A DNA stretch of 43,420 nucleotides from a virus. A program made the position numbers and the translations under genes. Position 1 is the first letter of the stretch. Each line of letters opens with the position of its first letter. Positions 9,579-22,654 of the stretch are shown here, piece by piece. The stretch spans positions 1-43,420 of the IMG/VR virus record IMGVR_UViG_3300048592_000523; one strand, given 5' to 3'. The notes beneath the pieces were generated by a model. That model searched no databases. It was not told the origin of the DNA and saw only the letters and a program-made list of their open reading frames with translations.

Positions 9579-10670
9579 TTGAGTCAGATCGAAAAAGAGA
9601 TTCTGAAAGCTACAGGGCTGAAAGGCCCCAAGGCTGCGGAGGATATCCAAGCGTACCTTGAACGGCTGGCGCTTGGTGCCGACAAGTTATCCGATTCGCA
9701 GTTCAACAAGCTTTCGGATGAAGCGCAGGAATGGTTGAACGATGCATCCGAGGTGGTGCTCGCCAACAAAGGCAAGCCTGCCAAGAAAAAGAAGGACATC
9801 GAACCGTTCCCCGATGCCGAGCCTGATGACGAGGACGAGGCGGATGATGAACCGCGCGGCAAGTCAAAGGCCAAGGCCAAGGGCGGCAAGCGCCGCGCTG
9901 CGGACGAGGACGATGATGACGACGCGGATTCCGATTCCGATGATTCGGATTCGGATGACGAGGACGAGGACGACGAGCCTGCGCCCCGCAAGGGCAAGGG
10001 CAAGCCTGCTGCAAAATCGAAATCCAAATCGCGGCGTGATGCCGACGAGGACGATGATGATGATGCAGATTCCGATTCGGATTCCGACGAGGATGAAGAT
10101 GACGAGCCTGCGCCGCGCAAGCGCAAGCAGCGCGATGCAGATGACGACGAGGACGAGGACGACGAGCCTGCTCCTCGCCGCAAAGCGAAATCCAAATCGC
10201 GCCGTGCGGCCGACGAGGACGACGATGACGATTCGGATTCTGATTCCGATGATTCGGATTCGGATGACGAGGACGACGAGCCTGCCCCGCGCCAGCGCGG
10301 CAAGGCCAAGTCGGCAAAGCGTTCGCGTGATGCCGATGACGACGACAGCGATGACGCTGACGGCGATTCCAACGATGAAGATGACGAGGGCGATATGGCT
10401 ACCAAGAAGTCCAAGGCCAAGAAGGGCGGCACCACCAAGAAGGCTGCAGACAAGAAGAGCACCGGCACCGGCAGCGGCGGTGGTGTGAACTACGAGGTGC
10501 GGCGCATGATCGTCAAGAATCCGCGCCAGAGCTTCGAGCAGATCGAAAAGGCACTCAAGAAGGCTGGGCACAAGGGGCTGAGCGCGGCCACGATCCGCGC
10601 AGCCATCAGCGGCACGCTGCAGATCTTGCGTATCGCCAAGGAGCTTGGGCTGCCCAAGGGCGAATTCTAA
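9579..10670 (+). CDS. Acidic repeat protein with folded C-terminal domain
   Basis: A 363-residue protein starting at TTG 9579, chosen because GGGAGG (9567-9572) is six bases upstream and no ATG fits. Residues 1-60 form a helical domain. Residues 80-285 are low-complexity: long runs of Asp/Ser/Glu interrupted at intervals by basic DEPAPRK/R-type modules. Residues 300-363 form a small helical domain (RQSFEQIEKALKKAGHKGLS then ATIRAAISGTLQILR) resembling a winged-helix or SAP-like DNA-binding fold. The same DEPAPR modules occur in the ssDNA-binding protein at 17025. A scaffold or DNA-mimic role in the replication complex is possible but unproven. Long direct repeats in the Asp block make length variation between isolates likely. 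Confidence 0.7.
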   Translation: MSQIEKEILKATGLKGPKAAEDIQAYLERLALGADKLSDSQFNKLSDEAQEWLNDASEVVLANKGKPAKKKKDIEPFPDAEPDDEDEADDEPRGKSKAKAKGGKRRAADEDDDDDADSDSDDSDSDDEDEDDEPAPRKGKGKPAAKSKSKSRRDADEDDDDDADSDSDSDEDEDDEPAPRKRKQRDADDDEDEDDEPAPRRKAKSKSRRAADEDDDDDSDSDSDDSDSDDEDDEPAPRQRGKAKSAKRSRDADDDDSDDADGDSNDEDDEGDMATKKSKAKKGGTTKKAADKKSTGTGSGGGVNYEVRRMIVKNPRQSFEQIEKALKKAGHKGLSAATIRAAISGTLQILRIAKELGLPKGEF

Positions 10671-12320: not shown

Positions 12321-14882
12321 TTGGGATTCTACGAATACGACGAGAACCCGGTACAGGCCCCGACCAAAGTGAAGGGCCTATCGCTCGCGGCCCTGCACGC
12401 TGCCGGTTGCAGCCTGTGCCCGCTGGCCAAGAACAAAAAGGCGTGCAGCCCCGATATGAAGCCGAGCGGGGCAAAGCGCCCGCTCGTGTACATCCTTGGC
12501 GACCAGCCGTTGCGCGAGGATGACTTGGCTGACGAGCAAATGCGCGGCGACGCTGGCAAGTACCTGCGCAGGCTGATACCCGACGACTTTGACGATGCGA
12601 TCCGGTTCAACAATGCTGTGCGTACGCGCACGCCCAAGGACCGGGTGCCGGACCAAGTCGAAATCGAGTGCTGCAGGCCTAGCATCATCAAGGATATTGA
12701 AAGGCAGAAGCCGGTCGCAATCTTTGGCTTTGGCGCGTTGCCGCTGAAATGGGTAACGGACCAATCGCAAAGTCTGCCCAACTGGCGCGGCAAGCGCATG
12801 CCGGTAAAGATCGGCAGCCACACGTGCTGGTTTTACGTTTTCAACAGCCCTGCGGACATCATCGAGTCATGGCCCGAGTGGTACGAGCCGGGCAAAAGCA
12901 GCCGCAAGTGGGGCAGTGATATCGAGTTTGCGTTCCAACACGACCTGCGCACCGCGTTCAAGCAGGTGCGCAAAGGCCTGCCTAAGCCGGTGGTGCATTC
13001 GTTCGAGGATGCCGAGCGTGACGTGCGCTGGGTTACAGGCGCAAAGCCGGGCGACCTGCGCACGGTGCTGGATTGGTTTGATAAGTGCGAGGCTGCAGAC
13101 GCCTGCGGCTTTGACTACGAGACCAACGCGCTGCGGCCGTACCGTGATGGCAAGCTGTTGACGCTATCGCTTAGCATCGACGATGGCACGCTGGCATTCC
13201 CGCTCGACCACCGGCAAAGCCAATTCAGCAACGAGGACCGCGCCACCATACGCAAGCGGCTAAAGCGCTTCCTGTTGACGTCCAAGCACGTGCACAAGGC
13301 GGTGCACAACTTGGCGTTTGAACTGGAATGGTCGTGCGTCACCTTTAGCCGCGAGGTAGCGTTCACGCCAAAATGGGAATGCACGCAGTCGCAAAGCTTT
13401 GTGCTGGATACCCGGGCCTACGCACACTCGCTGGACTTCAAGTGCTATGAATACTTTGGCCTGCCCATCAAGGATATGACAACGACGCTGGACAAGAACA
13501 ACCTTGACGGCTGTGAGCTTGAGCAGGTGTTGCGTTACAACGGTGTCGACTCCAAGTACCACTTGCTGGTCTACCGCTACCAAGTGAAGCTGCTGCGCCA
13601 GCGCAAACTCGATTGGGTGTACGACGAGCACATGCGCCGCGTGCCTGCTGCAGTGCTAACGCAGGTGCAGGGCGTGCCGGTCGACCAAGCCACCGTCACC
13701 AAGTTTGATAAGCGGCTGCGCAAGGAATTGCGCGTGATCGAGGACAACATATTCAACGAGCCGGATACCGAGCGCTACGCCAAAAAGTTTGGCCACGAAT
13801 TCGAGCCGTCGAATCAGAACCATGTGAAGCGGTTGTTCAACGACCTGCTTAAGATGAACTTGGAAAAGACCGAGAAGCTTACGCTTGAAAAAGTAAAACA
13901 CCCGCTGGCAAAGCTGGTGCTGGAGCATCGCGGTGTTGCCAAGCTTAAGTCAACGTACGTGGACGTGCTGAAGCCCGAGTCGCCGCTGGTGTACCCGGAT
14001 GGCAAATTCCACGCGGTGATCGCCACCACCAAAGTGCGCACGTCTCGCACAAGCAGCGAAGACCCGAACGCGCAGAACTGGCCTAAGCGTGGTGCCAAGG
14101 TATTCATACGCGAGCAGGTGAAGGTTGATGATGACCACGTGATCGTGGCCATCGACTACGCGGGCATCCAAGGGCGCAATGTTGCAATGGAGTCGCTGGA
14201 CAAGCGGCTCACTGAATCGTTCTGGAATCACTACGACATCCACCACGACTGGCTTGAGCGGTTGATCCGGCGGTATCCCAAATTTCATAAGCTGACCAAA
14301 GAGCAGGACCCCAAGGAGTGGAAGGAAAAGCGGTCACTGGTGAAAAACCGTTTTGTGTTTCCTACCTTCTTTGGCGCGTACCCAAAGAAGCTGGCCACCG
14401 AGTTGCACGTGCCGCTTGATATTGGCGAAGGCCTGCGCGAGGAATTCTTTGGCGAGTTCCGTGACATTCACAAATGGCACGAGGTGCTAAAGGAAAATTT
14501 TGAACGCACTGGCTACGTCACAGGCCTTAGCGGTTATCGGCAGTACGCGCCCATCAGCCCCAACCAAATGATCAACAGCCCCATCCAAGCAGACGAATGC
14601 GTCATCGTGTGTGCTGCATGGGATTCGCTATCTCGCGAGCGTAACCGTTACCTGCAGCCGGTTATGATGATTCACGACGACCTGACTTTCATTTTTCCGC
14701 GCAAGCGGTTGGAGGAATACATCGACATCGCAGTCGACCACATGACGCGCATCAACTTCCCGTGGATCAACTGCCCGCTTGAGGTGGAGGTTAGCACCGG
14801 ACAAGATTGGGCCAACCTGAAGGAGATAGGCAAGTACGAGCGCGCACCGGGATGGAAATCATGGAAGCAAATCAGCGGTTGA
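12321..14882 (+). CDS. Family A DNA polymerase with N-terminal UDG-like domain
   Basis: An 853-residue replicative polymerase. TTG 12321 is chosen because GGAGG (12310-12314) is six bases before it. Residues 1-170 resemble family 4/5 uracil-DNA glycosylases: CSLC (C30, C33), GDQPLREDD, GDAGKYL, then ECCRPSI (C117/C118). One usual Fe-S cysteine is replaced (RTRTPKD instead of .CRPP.N) and the HPS motif reads NSP, so activity is doubtful. A DEDD exonuclease follows: D265-Y-E267, H329-N330...E334 (Glu where Asp is usual), and YNGVD with D410. The polymerase domain has motif A IDYAGIQ (D612), motif B KNRFVFPTFFGAY (from K675) and motif C HDDL (H785-D787). SPO1-type phages have a comparable fusion. 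The last 13 codons are duplicated downstream at 15281-15322 (see findings). Confidence 0.9.
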   Translation: MGFYEYDENPVQAPTKVKGLSLAALHAAGCSLCPLAKNKKACSPDMKPSGAKRPLVYILGDQPLREDDLADEQMRGDAGKYLRRLIPDDFDDAIRFNNAVRTRTPKDRVPDQVEIECCRPSIIKDIERQKPVAIFGFGALPLKWVTDQSQSLPNWRGKRMPVKIGSHTCWFYVFNSPADIIESWPEWYEPGKSSRKWGSDIEFAFQHDLRTAFKQVRKGLPKPVVHSFEDAERDVRWVTGAKPGDLRTVLDWFDKCEAADACGFDYETNALRPYRDGKLLTLSLSIDDGTLAFPLDHRQSQFSNEDRATIRKRLKRFLLTSKHVHKAVHNLAFELEWSCVTFSREVAFTPKWECTQSQSFVLDTRAYAHSLDFKCYEYFGLPIKDMTTTLDKNNLDGCELEQVLRYNGVDSKYHLLVYRYQVKLLRQRKLDWVYDEHMRRVPAAVLTQVQGVPVDQATVTKFDKRLRKELRVIEDNIFNEPDTERYAKKFGHEFEPSNQNHVKRLFNDLLKMNLEKTEKLTLEKVKHPLAKLVLEHRGVAKLKSTYVDVLKPESPLVYPDGKFHAVIATTKVRTSRTSSEDPNAQNWPKRGAKVFIREQVKVDDDHVIVAIDYAGIQGRNVAMESLDKRLTESFWNHYDIHHDWLERLIRRYPKFHKLTKEQDPKEWKEKRSLVKNRFVFPTFFGAYPKKLATELHVPLDIGEGLREEFFGEFRDIHKWHEVLKENFERTGYVTGLSGYRQYAPISPNQMINSPIQADECVIVCAAWDSLSRERNRYLQPVMMIHDDLTFIFPRKRLEEYIDIAVDHMTRINFPWINCPLEVEVSTGQDWANLKEIGKYERAPGWKSWKQISG
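14844..14857 (+). repeat. 14-bp direct repeat, left copy (polymerase 3' end)
   Basis: GCACCGGGATGGAA, identical at 15284-15297, exactly 440 bp away. It encodes APGWK in the polymerase frame and the first codons of the inserted homing-type gene in the other frame. Confidence 0.9.
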
Positions 14883-15277
14883 AAACTGCGTACCACCAGC
14901 AAGTGTGGCGGGCTAAGAATCGTGGCATCAAGATGCTATTCACTTTTGATGAGTGGCTGGCATTTTGGAAAGCATCTGGCAAGCTGCACTTGCGCGGGCT
15001 TGGGCGTGGCAAGTATGTCATGGCGCGCAATGGTGACCGTGGCCCGTATGCGCCCGACAACGTTCGTATCATCTTGTTTGAAGACAACATGAAGGAAAAG
15101 CGCCTTACAAAAGCGATGCGCAATCGAATACGGGTGGCACGCTTAGGCACTAAAGCCAGCGCGGCTACTCGTGCAAAGATGAGTCAATCACACACCGGGC
15201 GTGTTAAGACCAAGGCACACCGGCAGGCGTTATCAAAGTCACTAAAGCGATCATGGCAGGAAAGGGCAGCGCAGTGA
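14852..15277 (+). CDS. Homing-endonuclease-like protein with NUMOD3 repeats
   Basis: A 141-residue protein from ATG 14852 (ATG 14861 is an alternative), overlapping the polymerase stop. The middle reads FTFDEWLAFWKASGKLHLRG, GRGKYVMARNGDRGPYAPDN and VRIILFEDN, a pattern known to me from free-standing phage HNH-type genes (W...GK...RG.G.Y.M.R..D.G.Y...NV.I....N). The C-terminal half has LGTKASAATRAKMSQSHTGR then AHRQALSKSLKRSW, NUMOD3-type DNA-binding repeats. A complete HNH core is not visible, so it may be a DNA-binding remnant or use a different nuclease core. Codon use is AT-richer than in the neighbours. It separates polymerase from clamp loader, and the junction is duplicated on both sides. 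Confidence 0.75.
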   Translation: MEIMEANQRLKTAYHQQVWRAKNRGIKMLFTFDEWLAFWKASGKLHLRGLGRGKYVMARNGDRGPYAPDNVRIILFEDNMKEKRLTKAMRNRIRVARLGTKASAATRAKMSQSHTGRVKTKAHRQALSKSLKRSWQERAAQ

Positions 15278-16245
15278 AAAAGGGCACCGGGATGGAAGGC
15301 GTGCAAGCGGATAAGCGGGTAGCGCCGCTGCATTTGAAATACAGGCCCAAGACCTTCGAGGAGGTGGTGGGCCACGGCGCAGCGGTGAAGGCGTTCAAAC
15401 GTTCGCTCGCTGACTCGCAAGCGTTCCTGCTGACCGGGCCTGCAGGCACCGGCAAGACTACGCTGGCGCGCATTGGCTGCAGCCACCTTGGCATCACGGA
15501 CGATGCAATCATCGAGATCGATGCAGCCAGCAACAATGGTATCGACCACATGCGTGCGCTGCAAAGCGTGATCCTGTACAAGCCCATCGGTGGCGACCGG
15601 CGCGGTGTGGTGATCGACGAGGCACACGGCTTGTCCAAGCAAGCATGGGACTCGCTGTTGAAAGTGGTGGAGGAGCCGCCGCACCACTTGGTTTGGTTTT
15701 TCTGCACCACCAACGCAAGCAAGGTGCCGACCACCATCAAGACCCGGTGCACACCTGTGCCGCTGCAGCCCATAGGCACGCAGCAGTTGGAGGACCTGCT
15801 GGACGAGGTGGCAGCCGAGGAGGGTATTGAACTGCCGCAGGGCGTGGCCAGCCTGTGCGTGCGGGAAGCCAACGGCAGCGCCCGGCAATTGCTCGTCAAC
15901 TTGGCCACGGTGCGCGGTGTCAAAAACCGCGAGGCTGCGGCCCGGCTGCTGCGGTCGGCTGTTGATAGCGACCCGGTGATTGCCCTATGCCGGTCGCTGG
16001 TGCAGGGCACCACGTTCATCAAGGCCAAGGCACTGGTTGCCGAATGTGATGGCCAGACACCGGAGGGCATCCGCCGTGTTGTAAACGGCTACATGGCAAG
16101 CGTGATGAAAGGCACAAACAACGAAAAGGCAGCCGGGCGGCTGCTGGACATCATGGATGCCTTTGAGCGGCCGTTCTACGACGACGATTCAATGGCACCG
16201 CTGTATTTGGCGCTTGGCAAGGTGCTGCTGCCCCCGGGCAAGTAG
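15274..16245 (+). CDS. Clamp loader ATPase (DnaX/RFC-like)
   Basis: A 323-residue AAA+ protein. It begins the core with LHLKYRPKTFEEVVGH, the DnaX/RFC entry motif, then Walker A GPAGTGKTT, Walker B VVIDEAH, sensor 1 CTTNASKVPTTIKTRC with the TRC arginine finger (SRC in RFC), and sensor 2 NGSARQLL. The C-terminal third is the helical collar. It lacks the DnaX zinc-binding cysteines, which makes it closer to a single-subunit phage loader such as T4 gp44. It should load the clamp encoded at 11129. Start choice is uncertain: GTG 15274 (GTGA overlap, AGGAAAGG upstream) is given, ATG 15253 is possible, and ATG 15292 is the probable ancestral start because it sits in the duplicated junction. Confidence 0.87.
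   Translation: MKKGTGMEGVQADKRVAPLHLKYRPKTFEEVVGHGAAVKAFKRSLADSQAFLLTGPAGTGKTTLARIGCSHLGITDDAIIEIDAASNNGIDHMRALQSVILYKPIGGDRRGVVIDEAHGLSKQAWDSLLKVVEEPPHHLVWFFCTTNASKVPTTIKTRCTPVPLQPIGTQQLEDLLDEVAAEEGIELPQGVASLCVREANGSARQLLVNLATVRGVKNREAAARLLRSAVDSDPVIALCRSLVQGTTFIKAKALVAECDGQTPEGIRRVVNGYMASVMKGTNNEKAAGRLLDIMDAFERPFYDDDSMAPLYLALGKVLLPPGK
15284..15297 (+). repeat. 14-bp direct repeat, right copy (clamp loader 5' end)
   Basis: GCACCGGGATGGAA again. In the polymerase frame the sequence continues as APGWKACKRISG-stop (stop TAG 15320-15322), a near copy of the present polymerase end. In the clamp loader frame ATG 15292 is the likely original start. Confidence 0.9.
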
Positions 16246-16251
16246 ACCCGG

Positions 16252-16271
16252 GTATGTATAGAAAAGGGAGT
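16252..16271 (+). promoter_or_regulatory. Repeated promoter-like element GTATGTATAG, copy 2
   Basis: GTATGTATAG (16252-16261) then GGGA (16266-16269), as at 9441-9458. It starts seven bases after the clamp loader stop and lies about 20 nt before the next start. No -35 box is evident. Confidence 0.4.
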
Positions 16272-16279
16272 CTTTTTGC

Positions 16280-16870
16280 ATGGCTAGGGTGCGGGTAAAA
16301 CGCAGGCGCGATGACGAGGATGCGGAGGACAACGTGTACCTGCGGGTGCTGCATGACAGCGGCGGTGTGTTCAAGCAGCGCGAGCCGCTGGATATCAGTG
16401 GGCTGGAGGAGGGCCTGCGCATCAGCAAGGATGCGCTGGATGATGGCCTGCTGCAGCAGCCCGACTTGTTCTACCGCGTGTCAAAGGAATTGACGCTGGC
16501 CACCAGCCGCCGCGATGCGGCCAAGCAGGGCGTTGCCGATGCGGAGGCGCAGGTGGAGTTGGGCCTGCACCGCTCGCGCGACAAATATACGGTCGGTGAA
16601 ATCAAGGCGCACGTTGCCGTGGCACCTAGTGTCAAGGCTGCGCGCAAGCTGCTTGCCGACCTGCAGTACGAGGTGAATCAGTTGAACGCTTTGAAGGAAG
16701 CGTTCAGCCAGCGCAGCTACGCGCTAAAGGAATTGGTGTCGTTGTTCATCGCCAATTACTACGGGGACATCGACCGCAGTGCCGCGCGCCGTGTGCAGGA
16801 CGTACAGGCCAATGATGCGCGGCGCAGGGCCAACGCTGTACGCAAGCGGCAAGAGAGGGAGGATGACTAG
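16280..16870 (+). CDS. Helical phage protein of unknown function (196 aa)
   Basis: The N-terminus is Arg-rich and acidic, then residues 60-160 form long predicted coiled-coil helices: RRDAAKQGVADAEAQVELGL, then KYTVGEIKAHVAVAPSVKAA and ALKEAFSQRSYALKELVSLF. The order (pre-helix, K.T..EI...V....., R..L..L...) matches a type of helical protein commonly found beside recombination genes in phages. The C-terminus is basic. A recombination-mediator role next to the ssDNA-binding protein and RecA-like gene is plausible by context, not by motif. Start is ATG 16280, in the same MARVR pattern as the genes at 17025 and 18723. Confidence 0.6.
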   Translation: MARVRVKRRRDDEDAEDNVYLRVLHDSGGVFKQREPLDISGLEEGLRISKDALDDGLLQQPDLFYRVSKELTLATSRRDAAKQGVADAEAQVELGLHRSRDKYTVGEIKAHVAVAPSVKAARKLLADLQYEVNQLNALKEAFSQRSYALKELVSLFIANYYGDIDRSAARRVQDVQANDARRRANAVRKRQEREDD

Positions 16871-17018
16871 GTTTTTGGAATATGCAGTTTACGGTGCCGC
16901 GTGCTTGTCGGCGCTGTATCTCGTCACGCTGACGGTCGCACATGCGTGGCATTCGGTGAAGCACGCACACCACCGCAAGGTGCTGAGCGAGTTTGGTAAC
17001 ATGCAGGAAAAGGAGTGA
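16863..17018 (+). CDS. Small single-pass membrane protein (51 aa)
   Basis: Overlaps the preceding stop by eight bases. The product starts MTRFLEYAVYGAACLSALYL and has one hydrophobic helix (about residues 6-28), followed by a His-rich HSVKHAHHRK segment and a polar tail. It sits seven bases before the ssDNA-binding protein gene. Its function is unknown; a membrane anchor or inhibitor role cannot be judged. Confidence 0.6.
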   Translation: MTRFLEYAVYGAACLSALYLVTLTVAHAWHSVKHAHHRKVLSEFGNMQEKE

Positions 17019-17024
17019 CATTGC

Positions 17025-18281
17025 ATGGCTAGGACTAGGGACCGTGATGATGATAGGGGCAGCCGCCGCAGCGGTCGCTCCTCGTACGAGGAAAACTTGG
17101 ACAAGAACGTCCGCAGGCGTGGCGAGCAAACCGGTGGCAGCTTCGATTCCTTTTTCAAGGAAGGCGTCACCCGGTACAGCCCGCCGCGTGGTGATAACGC
17201 GGTGCGCTTCCTGCCGCCAACATGGGAAGATGCCGAGCACTATGGGCACGACATTTGGGTGCACTACGGCATCGGCGCAGACAAAGGCTCATACCTTTGC
17301 CTGAAAAAGATGAAGGACAAGCCGTGCCCCATCTGCGATGCCGCCAACGAGATGAAAGCCGAGGGCGGCAAGGAAGCTGAAGCGGGCAAGCGCATCAGTG
17401 CCAAGCAGCGCGTGCTTACGTACGTGATCGACCGCAACGAGCGCAGGCCCAAGCTTGCCGTGTGGGCCATGCCGTGGACTGTTGACAAGGACGTGTCCCT
17501 CGCCAGCCAAAACAAAAAGACCGGCGAGGTGTTGAACATTGTCAACGCCAAGAAGGGGTACGATGTTTTCTTCCGGCTCGAAGGCCAGAAGCTAAACACC
17601 AAGTATAGCGGCGTAAGCATCGACCGCGACCCAAGCCCGTTGTCGGATGACAAACGCGAGGCCGAGGAATGGCTCGCTGAAGCCGAGGAGCGGCCGTTGC
17701 CCAAGCTGCTCAAGTTCTACGATGCCGACTACCTGCAAGAGGTGGTGGATGGCCACTCGGCTGCCAGCACCGATGACGATGATGATGATGACGCGCCGCG
17801 CAGCAAGCGCAAGCGGCGTGACTCGGATGATGATGATGACGAGGAGGACGAGGGGCCGCGCAACCGGCGCAGCAGCCGTAACTCGGATGACGATGATGAC
17901 GACGGACCTGCACCGCGCAGGCGCGGCCGTGATCGGGATTCCGATGACGACGACGAGGAGGACGCACCGCGCGGCAAGCGCAAGCGCCCTGCTGATGACG
18001 ATGACGATGACGAGCCTGCGCCGCGCAAGCGCAAGCGCGCATCGGATGATGACGACGACGAGGATGATGCGCCGAGTCGTAAGAAGCGCAAGCGCAGTGA
18101 TGACGAGGACGAGGCGGACCCGGCTGATGACGATGACGACGCGGACGACCGGCCGCGTAAGAAGCGCAGCCGTTCCTCGGATGAAGACGATGACGAGGAC
18201 GAGCGTCCCCGCAAGCGTGCGCGCGATTCCGACGACGATGATGATGACGACGAGCCTGCACCGCGCAGGCGCAGGCGTTAA
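17025..18281 (+). CDS. ssDNA-binding protein (gp32-like) with long charged repeat tail
   Basis: A 418-residue protein. Residues 40-240 follow the gp32-type layout: KEGVTRYSPPRGDNAVRFLP, WEDAEHYGHDIWVHYGIG, then C92 and C101-P-I-C104 with nearby His residues forming a probable zinc site, and beta strands of an OB fold. From about residue 246 to the end it consists only of alternating Asp/Glu runs and basic PR.KRKR modules, for example DEPAPRKRKR. Typical SSBs end in a short acidic tip; an alternation of acidic and basic blocks over about 170 residues is unusual. The tail would contact partners such as helicase, primase or recombinase. The gene sits between the helical 16280 protein and the RecA-like gene. 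Confidence 0.8.
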   Translation: MARTRDRDDDRGSRRSGRSSYEENLDKNVRRRGEQTGGSFDSFFKEGVTRYSPPRGDNAVRFLPPTWEDAEHYGHDIWVHYGIGADKGSYLCLKKMKDKPCPICDAANEMKAEGGKEAEAGKRISAKQRVLTYVIDRNERRPKLAVWAMPWTVDKDVSLASQNKKTGEVLNIVNAKKGYDVFFRLEGQKLNTKYSGVSIDRDPSPLSDDKREAEEWLAEAEERPLPKLLKFYDADYLQEVVDGHSAASTDDDDDDDAPRSKRKRRDSDDDDDEEDEGPRNRRSSRNSDDDDDDGPAPRRRGRDRDSDDDDEEDAPRGKRKRPADDDDDDEPAPRKRKRASDDDDDEDDAPSRKKRKRSDDEDEADPADDDDDADDRPRKKRSRSSDEDDDEDERPRKRARDSDDDDDDDEPAPRRRRR

Positions 18282-18295
18282 GTCGTAAGCGCATC

Positions 18296-18329
18296 GGGGG
18301 CAGCGGCTTTAGGGAGGCACGCTGCCCCC
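18296..18329 (+). terminator. Stem-loop after ssDNA-binding gene
   Basis: GGGGGCAGCG (18296-18305) and CGCTGCCCCC (18320-18329) form a perfect 10-bp stem with a 14-nt loop. No T-run. It ends 28 nt before the next start and may be a leader hairpin rather than a terminator. Confidence 0.5.
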
Positions 18330-18357
18330 AACCTGCATCAGCAAAAGGGAGTGCAAG

Positions 18358-18723
18358 ATGATACAGCTACCAAAGCGAGACGAGGTGTGGCAGCACTACA
18401 AGGGCGGCAAATACCTTGTGCTGGGCATCGGCTACGATGAAAACGGAATGCCGGTGGTGGTGTACACCGACAACACCGAGCCGCCCGGGCCAATGTTGTA
18501 CACGCGCAGCCTCGGCACGTTCCTGCAAACGGTGGACGTGGACTTGGAATGCAAGATGACCGGGCGCGCGGTCAGCGAGGGACACATACCGAATGGCGTG
18601 GCGACCAAGGTTGCCCGGTTCAGGCGCACAGGCGAGCGGCGCACCGCACGCGGCCCGATGGGCTGGGCAACACATGACGCGGGCATCCCAACCGATGCAC
18701 CTGCCAATGGGGGACAAAGCTGA
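18358..18723 (+). CDS. DUF1653-like protein
   Basis: A 121-residue protein whose first 70 residues match DUF1653: RDEVWQHYKGGKYLVLGIGY, then MPVVVYTDN..PPGPMLYTRSL, then FLQTVDV. The pattern in the family is (Y/W)xHYKGxxYxVLG.......VVY..........W.R.L..F...V. Function of the family is not established. The C-terminal 50 residues are polar and basic and lie outside the domain. Start ATG 18358 follows GGGAG; the stop overlaps the next ATG, so it is coupled to the recombinase gene. Confidence 0.75.
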   Translation: MIQLPKRDEVWQHYKGGKYLVLGIGYDENGMPVVVYTDNTEPPGPMLYTRSLGTFLQTVDVDLECKMTGRAVSEGHIPNGVATKVARFRRTGERRTARGPMGWATHDAGIPTDAPANGGQS

Positions 18724-19772
18724 TGGCTCGGGTACGGATTGGCAAGGTTGCGGCACCGGCAGCCAAAGGCACAGCGGCGACGCGGGCCAAGGGTGCGGGC
18801 AATTACTTTGTCGACGATGAAAAGGACGTCCAGTTTATACCCAGCGGGTGCAAGCTGCTCGACCTTGCGCTTGGTGGTGGCTGGGCTGATGGGCGCATCG
18901 CCAACATCGTTGGCGACAAGGCGGTGGGCAAGACACTGCTGTGCATCGAGGCGTGCGCCAATTTCATCCGCGTGCATCCCAAGGGCAAACTGTTCTACCG
19001 TGAGGCCGAGGCTGCGTTCGACAAGGGCTACGCCAAGGCGCTTGGCATGCCAGTCAGCCGCATCGACTTTGGCCAACCGCTGGAAACAGTGGAGGACATG
19101 TTCGAAGATTTGCAGCAGGTGTTGCGCACGCTCAAAGGCCCGGGCCTGTACATCGTTGACTCGCTGGATGCCCTGACCGACCGCGCCGAGCTTAAGCGGG
19201 ACTTGGACGAGGGTAGCTACGGTGCCAACAAGGCCAAGCAGCTATCGCAGTTGTTTAGGCGGCTGGTGCGCAAGATGGAGCGCAAGCAGCTTACCATCAT
19301 CATCGTGAGTCAAGTGCGCGACAAGATTGGCGCAATGTTCGGCCGCAAGACGACGCGCAGCGGCGGCAAGGCGTTGGACTTCTACGCATCGCAGGTGGTG
19401 TACCTCGCCAACCTTGGCGTCGAGTACGCAACGCTGCACGGCACCAAGCGGGCCACTGGTGTCAACGTGCGCGCCAAGCTGGACAAGAACAAGGTGGGCC
19501 TGCCATTCCGCGAGTGTGACTTCACCATCATCTTTGGGTACGGCATCGACGACCTGCGTGCTGGTGTTGCGTACCTGAAGCTGACCAAGGCACTGCAGAA
19601 CGCTGGCATCAACAAGGGAGTCGACCCGAAAAAGTACGCTGATGAATACCGGCGCGAACACTTGGGCACAACCAAGTACAAGGAACGCCAGCGCCGTGTA
19701 AACGAGGCACTGGTGGAACGGTGGGCCGAGATGGAACGGTCGCTGATGCCTAGCCATCAAAAGTACGCGTAA
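18723..19772 (+). CDS. RecA/UvsX-like recombinase
   Basis: A 349-residue strand-exchange ATPase. Walker A is GDKAVGKT (residues 64-71), Walker B GLYIVDSLDAL, and the region IIIVSQVRDKIGAMFGRKTT covers the sensor and loop L2 start. The conserved GGKALDFYASQ follows. The N-terminal 25 residues are Ala/Lys-rich and basic. The protein should form filaments on ssDNA coated by the 17025 protein and work with the SbcC/SbcD-like pair at 22797-26173 in recombination-dependent replication. It is shorter and more divergent than bacterial RecA and closer in style to phage UvsX-type proteins. Confidence 0.88.
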   Translation: MARVRIGKVAAPAAKGTAATRAKGAGNYFVDDEKDVQFIPSGCKLLDLALGGGWADGRIANIVGDKAVGKTLLCIEACANFIRVHPKGKLFYREAEAAFDKGYAKALGMPVSRIDFGQPLETVEDMFEDLQQVLRTLKGPGLYIVDSLDALTDRAELKRDLDEGSYGANKAKQLSQLFRRLVRKMERKQLTIIIVSQVRDKIGAMFGRKTTRSGGKALDFYASQVVYLANLGVEYATLHGTKRATGVNVRAKLDKNKVGLPFRECDFTIIFGYGIDDLRAGVAYLKLTKALQNAGINKGVDPKKYADEYRREHLGTTKYKERQRRVNEALVERWAEMERSLMPSHQKYA

Positions 19773-19782
19773 GGAGGCGATG

Positions 19783-20205
19783 ATGCGCGAGCGTGTGCGG
19801 GTAAGGATGTACGGCTCCAAGTACAGCCGCGCGCCAATGGCAACCAGTGAGATCAAGCGCATCGATGGGAATAACACGCGCGTGCTCGCTGCCCTACAGC
19901 GCGGATCAAAGACCAACGTGTGGCTATCGTCACACGTGTCACTTGATTACGGCCGGTGCATCCGCAAGCTGCGGCAAGCTGGTTACAACATATGGGGCAG
20001 GCGTCTGCGCGGCGGTTTGTTTCGCTACACACTGAAGGCACACACCGACCCGGTGTGGCTGGTGAAGGCAAGAGTCACGCTCGCGGATGGCCGCACGTTT
20101 GTGCAATGGGTTGCCGTCAATGCGTGTGATGAAGGTACTGCGCGCAACCGCGCGCAGCACAAAGTCACCAAAGTAAAGATATTGAAATCGAAATTGAAGG
20201 AGTAG
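19783..20205 (+). CDS. Winged-helix-like DNA-binding protein
   Basis: A 140-residue protein starting at ATG 19783 (AAGGAGG at 19771-19777; ATG 19780 is too close). Residues 30-85 read NNTRVLAALQRG, then SSHVSLDYGRCIRKLRQAGY and IWGRRLRGGLFRYTL, the layout of phage helix-turn-helix proteins in which the second helix precedes I..LR..G..I and a beta wing. The C-terminal 50 residues form a small beta-alpha unit with a basic end. It may regulate early or middle transcription. No specific operator could be assigned. Confidence 0.6.
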   Translation: MRERVRVRMYGSKYSRAPMATSEIKRIDGNNTRVLAALQRGSKTNVWLSSHVSLDYGRCIRKLRQAGYNIWGRRLRGGLFRYTLKAHTDPVWLVKARVTLADGRTFVQWVAVNACDEGTARNRAQHKVTKVKILKSKLKE

Positions 20206-20207
20206 CA

Positions 20208-20696
20208 ATGGCCACGCTATCTGCCCAATCGATCCGGCTGCTGTGCGTACCGTTCCTTGCGGACGACCCCAAGATGCTGCAGCCCTTCCACGAGCGTACG
20301 CGGCATAAGGGCCGCACGTTCGGTCTGTCATCATGCGGCTACGACATCCGCATTGCCGAAACCGTTTGGCTTTGGCCTATGTTTGGTCGGCTCGCATCCA
20401 GCATGGAATACTTTCACATGCCCAAGGACGTGTACGCCGAGGTGAAGGACAAAAGCACCAACGCGCGCCTCTTTCGGTTTGTGCAGAACACAGTCATCGA
20501 GCCGGGCTGGCGTGGCTACCTTACGCTCGAATTGACGCGCGACCGGCCATGGCCTGTGCGCATTGAAGCGGGCACGCCGATTGCGCAGATCATATTCCAC
20601 CGGCTCGACTACCCGACCGAGCAACCGTACGAGGGCAAATTTCAGGATCAGCGCAAGGGCGCGCAGCCTGCTATATTGGAGCCGGATGATGCGTAA
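20208..20696 (+). CDS. dcd: dCTP deaminase
   Basis: A 162-residue member of the dCTP deaminase/dUTPase superfamily, a usual length for Dcd. Motifs in order: SSCGYDIRI, AEVKDKSTNAR with the conserved KDKS, NTVIEPGWRGYLTLEL containing the catalytic Glu, GTPIAQIIFHRL and the C-terminal Y.GKFQDQRKG. It would convert dCTP to dUTP, which can feed thymidylate synthesis. No thymidylate synthase or dUTPase is visible in this window. Its co-occurrence with a polymerase carrying a UDG-like domain is noted in the findings. The stop lies within the next gene start (overlap of 11 nt). Confidence 0.9.
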   Translation: MATLSAQSIRLLCVPFLADDPKMLQPFHERTRHKGRTFGLSSCGYDIRIAETVWLWPMFGRLASSMEYFHMPKDVYAEVKDKSTNARLFRFVQNTVIEPGWRGYLTLELTRDRPWPVRIEAGTPIAQIIFHRLDYPTEQPYEGKFQDQRKGAQPAILEPDDA

Positions 20697-21201
20697 GGCA
20701 GGTGGTGGCAAAGCCAAGGGCGCTGCGTTCGAGCGGGTCTTTTGGGCGCGTGTTTTCACGGCCGAGCATGGGGCCTGCTGGCCTTGGCTTGGTGCCTGCA
20801 GCAGCACTGGGTATGGTGTTGTGTCACGTGATGGTCAACTTGTTCACACACACCGCGTGGCTTGGGAGCTAACGCATAAAAAGAAAGCCGGGCGGTGGAA
20901 GGTTCGCCACACTTGCGATAACCCGCTTTGTTGCAACCCTGCGCATTTGAAGCGCGGTACGCAAAAACAGAATGTGCACGATTCAATAAAACGTGGCCGC
21001 GCGCACAAGCATCAAGGGCCTAAGCCTTGGGTAGCAGGTGAGCTTAATGCGATTGCCAAGTTGACCGATGCTGGTGTGTTGTGGGCACGCCGCGTCGTGT
21101 TGTCGGGCAAAGTCAGCTTGGCTGCAGCGAGTCGCAAGCTGGGGGTAAGTCCCGGTACTATGCACTCTGCTGTTCATGGCAACACTTGGAGGCACCTGTG
21201 A
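20686..21201 (+). CDS. HNH homing endonuclease
   Basis: A 171-residue protein from ATG 20686 (overlapping the dcd end). The HNH_3-type core is clear: CWPWLGACSSTGYG, VHTHRVAWELTH, then VRHTCDNPLCCNPAHL and QNVHDSIKRGRA. A C-terminal helix-turn-helix (LSGKVSLAAASRKLGVSPG) matches the DNA-binding domain often attached to such enzymes. Codon use is AT-richer than the neighbours. The first 17 residues (RKAGGGKAKGAAFER) copy the start of the nuclease gene immediately downstream, so the element appears to have inserted a few codons inside that gene. Free-standing HNH genes cut unoccupied copies of their site and spread by repair. Confidence 0.9.
   Translation: MMRKAGGGKAKGAAFERVFWARVFTAEHGACWPWLGACSSTGYGVVSRDGQLVHTHRVAWELTHKKKAGRWKVRHTCDNPLCCNPAHLKRGTQKQNVHDSIKRGRAHKHQGPKPWVAGELNAIAKLTDAGVLWARRVVLSGKVSLAAASRKLGVSPGTMHSAVHGNTWRHL
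20695..20736 (+). repeat. Duplicated gene start, left copy
   Basis: Codons 4-17 of the HNH gene. They align without gaps with 21201-21242: about 30 of 42 bases and 11 of 14 residues are identical (K-GGGK-KGA-FER). Confidence 0.75.
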
Positions 21202-21761
21202 AACAAGGTGGTGGAAAAAACAAAGGCGCGACATTCGAAAGGTCTGTGTGCAAGGCGCTTGGCCTTTGGGTGACCGGGGGCAAGCGTGACGATATCTTCT
21301 GGCGCAGCGCCATGTCGGGCGGGCGCGCTACGATCCGGCAGCGCGGCGGCAAAGAGACGCGGCACCAAGCAGGCGATATCAGCAGCGTGCACGAGGCAGG
21401 GCACGTGCTGACTAGCTACTGGTTTATCGAGTGCAAGTTTGTCAAAAACCTGCGCATCACAAACTTTGTGCTGCAGACCGGTGGCGGCTTGATGGAGTAT
21501 TGGCGCACGGCCGTTGATCAAGCCCGGGTGCATGACCGCATCCCGATGGTCATTGCAAAACAGAACCGGGGCCAGACTATCGTGGTGATCCCGGAGTCCG
21601 AGCGCGTCAAATACGGGTGGGCGCGCAATGCCTGCGTCGCAACGGTGCTTGACGCCGGGTGCCACGCCGCAATTCTTTCATTTGAGACCATGATGGAATG
21701 CAAGCCGGAATTCAGAACGCCGGTGACCACCATCGAGAGGGTGAGGATTAGACAGCGATGA
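21198..21761 (+). CDS. PD-(D/E)XK nuclease, Holliday-junction-resolvase-like
   Basis: A 187-residue nuclease starting at GTG 21198, behind GGAGG (21188-21192) and overlapping the HNH stop (GTGA). It opens with KQGGGKNKGATFERSVCKAL, then W.TGGKRDDIFWRSAMSGGRAT. The PD-(D/E)XK core is visible as GDISS with the Asp, and after about 20 residues WFIECKF with E-x-K. This arrangement (GK.KG..FER.V, DDVFWR..SGG, GDI...IE.K) is characteristic of a phage nuclease group sometimes called resolvase. Expected role is processing branched or replicating DNA. The start region is a diverged replacement of the original start now carried by the HNH gene (see findings). Confidence 0.75.
   Translation: MKQGGGKNKGATFERSVCKALGLWVTGGKRDDIFWRSAMSGGRATIRQRGGKETRHQAGDISSVHEAGHVLTSYWFIECKFVKNLRITNFVLQTGGGLMEYWRTAVDQARVHDRIPMVIAKQNRGQTIVVIPESERVKYGWARNACVATVLDAGCHAAILSFETMMECKPEFRTPVTTIERVRIRQR
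21201..21242 (+). repeat. Duplicated gene start, right copy
   Basis: Codons 2-15 of the nuclease gene, matching 20695-20736. This copy is richer in A (aaa, caa, gga, aac) than the left copy, suggesting that it arrived with the HNH gene. Confidence 0.75.
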
Positions 21762-22654
21762 CCAAAAGCAAAGTGACCGAATACGGTGGTGATCTCTACA
21801 ACGCAGACTGCTTCGACGTCTTCCCGCACATCAAGGAAGGCTCAATCGATATGGTGCTTTGCGACTTGCCCTACGGCGTAACCGACTGCGCATGGGATTC
21901 GGTGCTGCCATTTGACCAGCTTTGGGATGCGTTGGAGCGCATCGTAAAACCGAAGGGCGCCATCGTGCTTACCGCGACCAACCCGTTCGCGAGCGCGGCG
22001 GTCTCGTCCAAATATGACTGGTTTAGGCACGACTGGGTGTTCGAGAAAAACAACCACTCCAACTTCATGACTTCGAAGATCATGCCGCTGCGTTATCACG
22101 AATACGTTCTGGTCTTTGGCAAGCAGAGTCCAAACTATTACCCGATTATGACGGCGCGCAAGAATCGGCTGAGCAAGGCCTTCTATGCTCATGGACCGCG
22201 CGAGATCATTGGCCGCACGATCAAGGCCGGTAAGTTTAGCATCAGCGATATGCAGTATCCCGGCTCGGTGCAAAAGTTTGACGTCATGCGGCGCGGCGAC
22301 GCCAAGGGGCACCACCCTACGCAAAAACCGGTCTCGCTGTTCGAATACATGATCAAGACCTACTCGCTGCCCGGCGAGACGGTGCTCGATATGACGGTCG
22401 GCAGCGGCACCACCGCCATTGCCGCAATCAATACCGGGCGCAAGTATATCTGCGTCGAGCACGATAAGGCGATCTACAAGCGCATGGTGGATCGGGTGCG
22501 GACGCATTGGCACGCGACCGCAGCTTGGCGTCGCAAGCACGGTGAGAAGATGATCGCAGATGAGATGAAGGCCAAGGAGGCCTTTTTCAAACTGCTTAAG
22601 CAGCGCGGCGAGCGTGGCGGTGGTGAGTCCGAGCGGGTGAGGATTGCCAAATGA
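21758..22654 (+). CDS. DNA methyltransferase (N6-adenine or N4-cytosine, beta class)
   Basis: A 298-residue modification methylase. The order of motifs is catalytic motif IV DLPYG (about residue 32), a central variable region, then motif I-type DMTVGSGTTAIAA with SAM-binding Gly residues and HHPTQKPVSLFEY before it, which is the beta-class order. Asp-Leu-Pro-Tyr replaces the usual D/N/S-PP-Y/W at one position. The C-terminus is helical and basic. No restriction partner is visible, so it is a solitary methylase that may protect phage DNA or alter promoters. Codon use (many GTC, GAT, ATG-rich blocks) differs somewhat from neighbours. Start ATG overlaps the preceding stop. Confidence 0.87.
   Translation: MTKSKVTEYGGDLYNADCFDVFPHIKEGSIDMVLCDLPYGVTDCAWDSVLPFDQLWDALERIVKPKGAIVLTATNPFASAAVSSKYDWFRHDWVFEKNNHSNFMTSKIMPLRYHEYVLVFGKQSPNYYPIMTARKNRLSKAFYAHGPREIIGRTIKAGKFSISDMQYPGSVQKFDVMRRGDAKGHHPTQKPVSLFEYMIKTYSLPGETVLDMTVGSGTTAIAAINTGRKYICVEHDKAIYKRMVDRVRTHWHATAAWRRKHGEKMIADEMKAKEAFFKLLKQRGERGGGESERVRIAK

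Follow-up and report, generated by a model that had tools for sequence, protein, structure and literature searches.

An HNH homing endonuclease gene that probably invaded and captured the start of a nuclease gene in an uncultivated phage

The window analysed here, which is the whole 43,420-bp stretch of an uncultivated virus record (IMGVR_UViG_3300048592_000523), contains an HNH endonuclease gene directly in front of a nuclease gene, and the proteins encoded by these two genes begin with nearly the same residues. The question that this locus raises is how one gene start came to stand twice, with an HNH gene between the copies, and which of the copies arrived from elsewhere. From the comparisons described below, we consider it probable (roughly 0.8) that the HNH gene is a free-standing homing endonuclease gene that entered a phage PDDEXK nuclease gene at its 5' end.

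The order of genes at the site is RecA-like, a small gene, dCTP deaminase-like, HNH, nuclease, DNA methyltransferase, and SbcD/SbcC-like genes, in which the names RecA and SbcCD are provisional and come from reading the sequences (for coordinates, see Table 1). Beginning with ATG 20686 or ATG 20689 (MMRKAGGGKAKGAAFER and onward), the HNH ORF overlaps the stop codon of the dCTP deaminase-like gene (20694-20696), and its own stop, TGA 21199-21201, overlaps the GTG start of the nuclease gene at 21198 to form GTGA. Both domains are intact. The HNH protein scores 28.8 bits against Pfam HNH_3 (cut-off 24.8, E 9e-7) and retains the invariant His, Asn, and Cys columns of this family in the HNH alignment, and the nuclease scores 66.3 bits against PDDEXK_15 (PF24608, E 4e-18), has a RusA-like Holliday junction resolvase as its PHROG match, and contains the GD...ExK residues, with D60, E78, and K80 being invariant in the nuclease family alignment. 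A group I intron was rejected, as positions 14500-22000 have no match to an Rfam intron family and the HNH ORF fills the insert, and so was an intein, as both genes are complete.

Table 1. Features of the HNH-nuclease site and of the other element in the window
Feature	Position	Strand	Basis
Left copy of other repeat: DNA polymerase end in use and start of element ORF (ATG 14852)	14844..14878	+	28 of 35 bases identical to 15284-15318
ORF of other element, homing-endonuclease-like, NUMOD3-like tail	14852..15277	+	PHROG 16521, E 2e-24; PHROG 314 (homing endonuclease), E 1e-4
Right copy of other repeat: relict polymerase end and clamp-loader start (ATG 15292)	15284..15318	+	Pfam DNA_pol3_delta2, E 2e-19, for clamp loader
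dCTP deaminase/dUTPase-like gene, 5' of HNH gene; stop overlaps captured start	20208..20696	+	Pfam DCD, E 3e-17; PHROG 1663, E 6e-41
GGAG, probable former ribosome-binding site of nuclease gene, now used by HNH gene	20678..20681	+	Sequence; putative role
Left copy MMRKAGGGKAKGAAFER, probable captured original nuclease start, now N-terminus of HNH protein	20686..20736	+	Family-wide nuclease start; HNH relatives without it
HNH endonuclease body (VFWARV first, GNTWRHL last), with C-terminal helix-turn-helix-like region	20737..21201	+	HNH_3, E 9e-7; PHROG 1872, E 2e-28
GGAGG, putative new ribosome-binding site of nuclease gene, 5 nt 5' of GTG	21188..21192	+	Sequence; TGG AGG are W R codons of HNH C-terminus
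Right copy (GTG KQGGGKNKGATFER), probable replacement nuclease start; GTGA overlap with HNH stop	21198..21242	+	-12 from FER, like family; GC3 5/14
Remainder of PDDEXK_15/RusA-like Holliday-junction-resolvase-type nuclease, native composition	21243..21761	+	Pfam PF24608, E 4e-18; PHROG 244, E 7e-17; GC3 11/14 directly past copy

The original prediction described an alignment of fourteen codons (20695-20736 and 21201-21242) with the HNH gene in between, and the sequence and its frames are as described: 11 of 14 residues and 30 of 42 bases are identical. In the DNA test of HNH flanks, this pair of copies scores 19, the 99.9th percentile of 8687 cross-locus controls being 14, and at the protein level it scores 56 vs 45 for the 99.9th percentile of 5397 controls. 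The similarity of the left and right copies ends at FER on both sides. Most of about 80 relatives of the nuclease, taken from viral contigs, start M[RK]xGGGKxKGxxFER, with the start codon mostly about 12 residues ahead of FER, and therefore both copies are genuine nuclease starts. One uninterrupted nuclease (L130) starts MKKAGGGKAKGASFER, which is almost the left copy, and another nuclease (L073) starts MRRGGGKNKGSAFER, which is near the right copy. Uninterrupted relatives that start with the right-copy sequence had been named in advance as a finding against insertion; L073 does resemble that copy, but the resemblance is not decisive: the right copy is itself a genuine nuclease start, as a donor would provide.

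Among the matches listed for the HNH protein of the window, alignments begin only at query residues 14-30. In the aligned HNH relatives, the N-termini ahead of the conserved FWxKV are unrelated, and the left-copy segment is absent. Since the nuclease family has this motif and these HNH relatives do not, the left copy is a nuclease start joined to the HNH protein. This is what was expected if the HNH gene uses the old start of the nuclease gene, with nucleases of the L130 type beginning like the left copy, and the comparison of HNH N-termini, which would have favored the opposite view had this segment been conserved at other HNH loci, came out for capture. One might still think of GGGKxKGxxFER as a functional module, for example for DNA binding, that the HNH protein and the nuclease both need, since it is a basic motif with strong conservation across the nuclease family. 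However, its absence from the aligned HNH relatives and the presence, on other HNH genes, of the start of the gene downstream of them (an SSB gene in L167 and a glycosyltransferase gene in L180) make a shared module exceedingly improbable.

Which of the copies is foreign can be approached through composition, expressed here as third-position G+C per 14-codon window (GC3), for which native genes have a mean of 10.6/14 over 4196 windows. The GC3 of the right copy is 5/14, an argument based on 14 codons, and values of 5 or lower account for 0.07% of the native windows. The left copy has a GC3 of 9/14; the HNH body, with lower GC3 than its neighbors, averages 7.8 vs 10.6 in native genes; and the nuclease is back to 11/14 in the window that immediately follows the right copy (from 21243). 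Position at a gene start does not by itself explain the low value of the right copy, as other native genes have a GC3 of 7-12 in their first 14 codons. As far as these few codons indicate, the foreign tract would comprise the HNH body and the right copy and end at 21242/21243, which is exactly where the similarity of the copies also ends. The simplest reading would thus be a clean insertion of the HNH body, a ribosome-binding site, GTG, and a donor start between FER and SVC of the recipient. The proposal that the element supplied a diverged start to the nuclease, with a new GTG and the GTGA overlap, is supported in that the right copy and the HNH gene are alike in their foreign composition.

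These observations also bear on the order of events. The nuclease start could first have undergone a local tandem duplication, through slippage of replication or through unequal recombination, with the HNH gene entering later without any link to homing; a duplication is simple, and copies that agree in 30 of 42 bases are only moderately diverged. Such a sequence of events is nevertheless quite improbable, as the right copy has the foreign composition of the HNH gene and not that of its own nuclease, with an exact boundary, as flank duplications recur at unrelated genes beside HNH genes, and as an HNH gene and a diverged nuclease start appear together when two loci, L001 and L076, are compared.

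L001 and L076 are 99.3% identical across 3 kb 5' of the nuclease start codon. L001 (3400-4170) has a 185-residue HNH gene, different from that of the window, exactly at the nuclease start; its nuclease gene is diverged and AT-richer over the first ~165 bp vs that of L076 (2960-3170), and near-identity resumes downstream. Between near-identical genomes, this is the pattern expected when homing co-converts the 5' end of the nuclease gene. The recipient's own nuclease start has been lost in L001 and not captured, and therefore the exact repair route differs between cases. HNH_3 genes abut the nuclease start in five loci (L001, L070, L095, L126, and L136), four of them with NUMOD4, and therefore different enzymes have reached the same place. 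Their presence is sporadic, with 74 nuclease loci having no abutting HNH gene. Insertion inside the start of the nuclease gene, as had been proposed for the window, is consistent with HNH genes reaching this same spot in the present/absent pair and in five loci in all.

In an exploratory comparison, the first nuclease codons were AT-richer relative to the rest in these five loci and the window than in the 74 loci without HNH genes (Mann-Whitney p 0.005). In addition, the HNH proteins of L136 and L070 start with VRSG and MRA, respectively, and resemble the nuclease starts MRTG and MRAG over 3-4 residues only, a likeness that is merely suggestive. A pattern search for an HNH C-terminus followed by a nuclease start matched only the contigs of L001 and L123, and in a DNA pattern search for further KGxxFERxFW fusions, all matches (L144-L146) were unrelated and due to chance. 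No close relative of the window phage was recovered when the HNH protein, the nuclease, and the dCTP deaminase were used as queries; its nearest nuclease relatives are ~50% identical, and an uninterrupted allele from its lineage was not found among them. The best named match for RecA, the polymerase, and the clamp loader is Edwardsiella phage ZHS, in which the stretch examined has no gene annotated as a PDDEXK_15 nuclease and in which RuvC is present.

The original prediction also guessed at a general mechanism. For a survey of 217 non-redundant HNH loci, limited to HNH genes like that of the window and with near-identical sequences collapsed only by exact signature, the sequence before the HNH core was compared with the sequence past the HNH stop. 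At the DNA level, 7 of the 217 loci, including the window, score at least 15, vs an expectation of 0.43 obtained with displaced segments from these loci, so that the guess holds in this survey, with a detectable duplication in only a few percent of HNH loci. At the protein level, the most conspicuous loci are the window and L180; L167 ranks lower. L180 encodes an HNH protein starting VRFHVPALP followed by a glycosyltransferase starting VRFHIPSLP, and a cyanophage relative begins VSNKFRFHILGLP. In L167, start capture is biologically clear: the HNH protein starts MSVNKVILIGRLGKDPETRY, Pfam SSB matches its first 20 residues (E 9e-4), and an ssb gene with a diverged start adjoins the HNH gene downstream. 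Among the loci of the DNA-level test, read one by one, L330 and L339 have decayed polymerase-like gene starts before the HNH gene. The mirror image, in which an element replaces a gene end, is found in L172, L385, and L261, where HNH ORFs finish on a copy of the end of the upstream gene (for example, ALTCGTTTGCG* vs CLTCGTTTGCG*), and L317 has a relict gene end past its HNH gene. Start capture and end capture both occur. Protein-test hits in L212, L283, and L233 were dismissed as low complexity. L303 and L331 were not counted as gene-end capture; their HNH genes adjoin tRNA-like sequence with a short tRNA repeat on the other side, and these repeats may be integration-like.

Across the HNH family, stops overlap a start codon in 44% of cases vs 7% in the background, and a Shine-Dalgarno-like motif occurs in the final 27 nt of the HNH gene in 42% vs 17%. 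In the window and several other loci, the source of this motif is the TGG AGG codons of a conserved C-terminal Trp-Arg. It seems reasonable, if a good deal less certain than the reading of the window itself, to think that phage HNH homing genes in general enter the terminal codons of genes, supply a substitute for that start or end, and take over the former start or stop for themselves, with the ribosome-binding site of start cases residing in a conserved Trp-Lys/Arg-His C-terminus. Such scar-free, self-repairing insertions would steadily swap gene ends between phages.

For the window, in which the HNH gene seems to stand about 16 codons into the nuclease gene, a route of insertion can be outlined as a hypothesis. 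The recipient nuclease gene, starting MRKAGGGKAKGAAFER and continuing with SVCKAL..., would have been cut near codon 16. The right end would then have been repaired from a donor carrying the HNH gene directly 5' of its own nuclease start, by which the donor start (GTG KQGGGKNKGATFER) and the HNH gene were copied in. The left end would have been joined illegitimately to the HNH gene just 5' of the conserved FWxxV, perhaps through the short ER similarity, and in this way the old ribosome-binding site and first 16 codons of the recipient would have become the HNH start. Finally, the donor GGAGG, within the HNH C-terminal Trp-Arg codons, and GTG would initiate translation of the nuclease, which the GTGA overlap would couple to the HNH stop. 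The joined empty site of the window phage would accordingly encode a nuclease starting MRKAGGGKAKGAAFERSVCKAL, and the new allele would presumably resist cutting. One-sided invasion followed by a microhomology join fits what is seen in the window.

A homology-driven exchange of the whole neighborhood, by co-conversion after a distant cut, might also be considered, in which case the HNH N-terminus would result from readthrough of an older start relict. In L330 (1350-1600) and L339 (880-1100), HNH genes with their own start are inserted 5' of a polymerase-like gene and are preceded by a decayed start of such a gene (MDLITLD...), and therefore relict and capture form a continuum. Free-standing enzymes of T4 also cut at a distance from their insertion site (PMC2988022). 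However, the captured start in the window shows no decay, is in frame, and passes directly into the HNH body right at the end of the nuclease copy, so that an exchange of this kind is unlikely here.

Direct invasion of the nuclease gene has its closest parallels in fungal mitochondria, where mobile ORFs (mORFs) with foreign C-terminal gene ends are known from Allomyces atp6 and from Glomus atp6, atp9, cox2, and nad3 (PMC3630166). As in the window, an endonuclease gene inserts in a host gene and brings a diverged gene end, and the native end is often kept as a duplicate; a diverged duplicate on the insert with the native end retained is likewise what the two copies, together with the composition of the right copy, indicate for the window. 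The mORFs differ in that they replace C-termini, are of the LAGLIDADG or GIY-YIG type, and reside in organelles, whereas the window has a phage HNH gene that replaces a gene start and an HNH ORF that uses the old start codon. N-terminal duplications are found in predicted introns of fungal mitochondria (PMC7315562), where the mobile insert also bears a diverged host-gene fragment exchanged via homing. These elements are predicted introns, one of them confirmed by cDNA tests, whereas no intron was detected in the window and its fragment of about 15 codons, unlike theirs, supplies a start codon and a ribosome-binding site.

In phages, the T4 seg and mob genes and Skunavirus HNH genes are free-standing homing endonuclease genes that, like the HNH gene of the window, are independent and located between phage genes, in some cases overlapping neighbors, with homing accompanied by co-conversion (PMC2988022, PMC12724721). 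They usually lie between genes and can cut far away, and the available parts of these two sources do not describe gene-start capture. The ShiLan-type hidden HNH insertions in phage methylase genes, described in 2025 (PMC11855218), similarly place an HNH gene within a phage coding sequence without a splicing element, but their host genes are read across the insert in a different frame, whereas in the window the host gene is restarted from a supplied start. The open-access literature, to which the search was confined, yielded no account of a phage HNH gene that uses the start or stop of the gene it invades.

By this route, a selfish gene could enter a phage gene that is essential or tightly packed and leave it functional, even without an intron or intein, and this may be a reason why HNH genes often overlap their neighbors by a few bases. 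Precise cut sites are predicted at the junction between the two copies, and flanking gene-end duplication could serve as a signature of past homing events and of gene-end exchange between phages. Phage HNH genes would in addition be linked to the gene-end-carrying elements of fungal mitochondria.

Finally, the window contains another element, at 14844-15318, which had been proposed as a mirror image of the nuclease site. The same logic does apply, but a strict mirror image does not, because the polymerase end and the clamp-loader start overlap and the 35-bp repeat extends over both, the element lying between these two genes, and the element also begins on a clamp-loader-like start. The left copy starts the element ORF (MEIMEANQR), and the right copy starts the clamp loader (MEGVQADKR). 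The score of this repeat exceeds all cross-locus controls in the survey DNA test and equals the 99th percentile of same-spacing controls, which include repetitive acidic genes; evidence for this site is therefore good but weaker. Long repetitive acidic tracts of Asp/Glu-Lys/Arg-Pro are found in two proteins of the window (9579-10670 and 17025-18281), and the second of these occupies the position of a single-strand DNA-binding protein.
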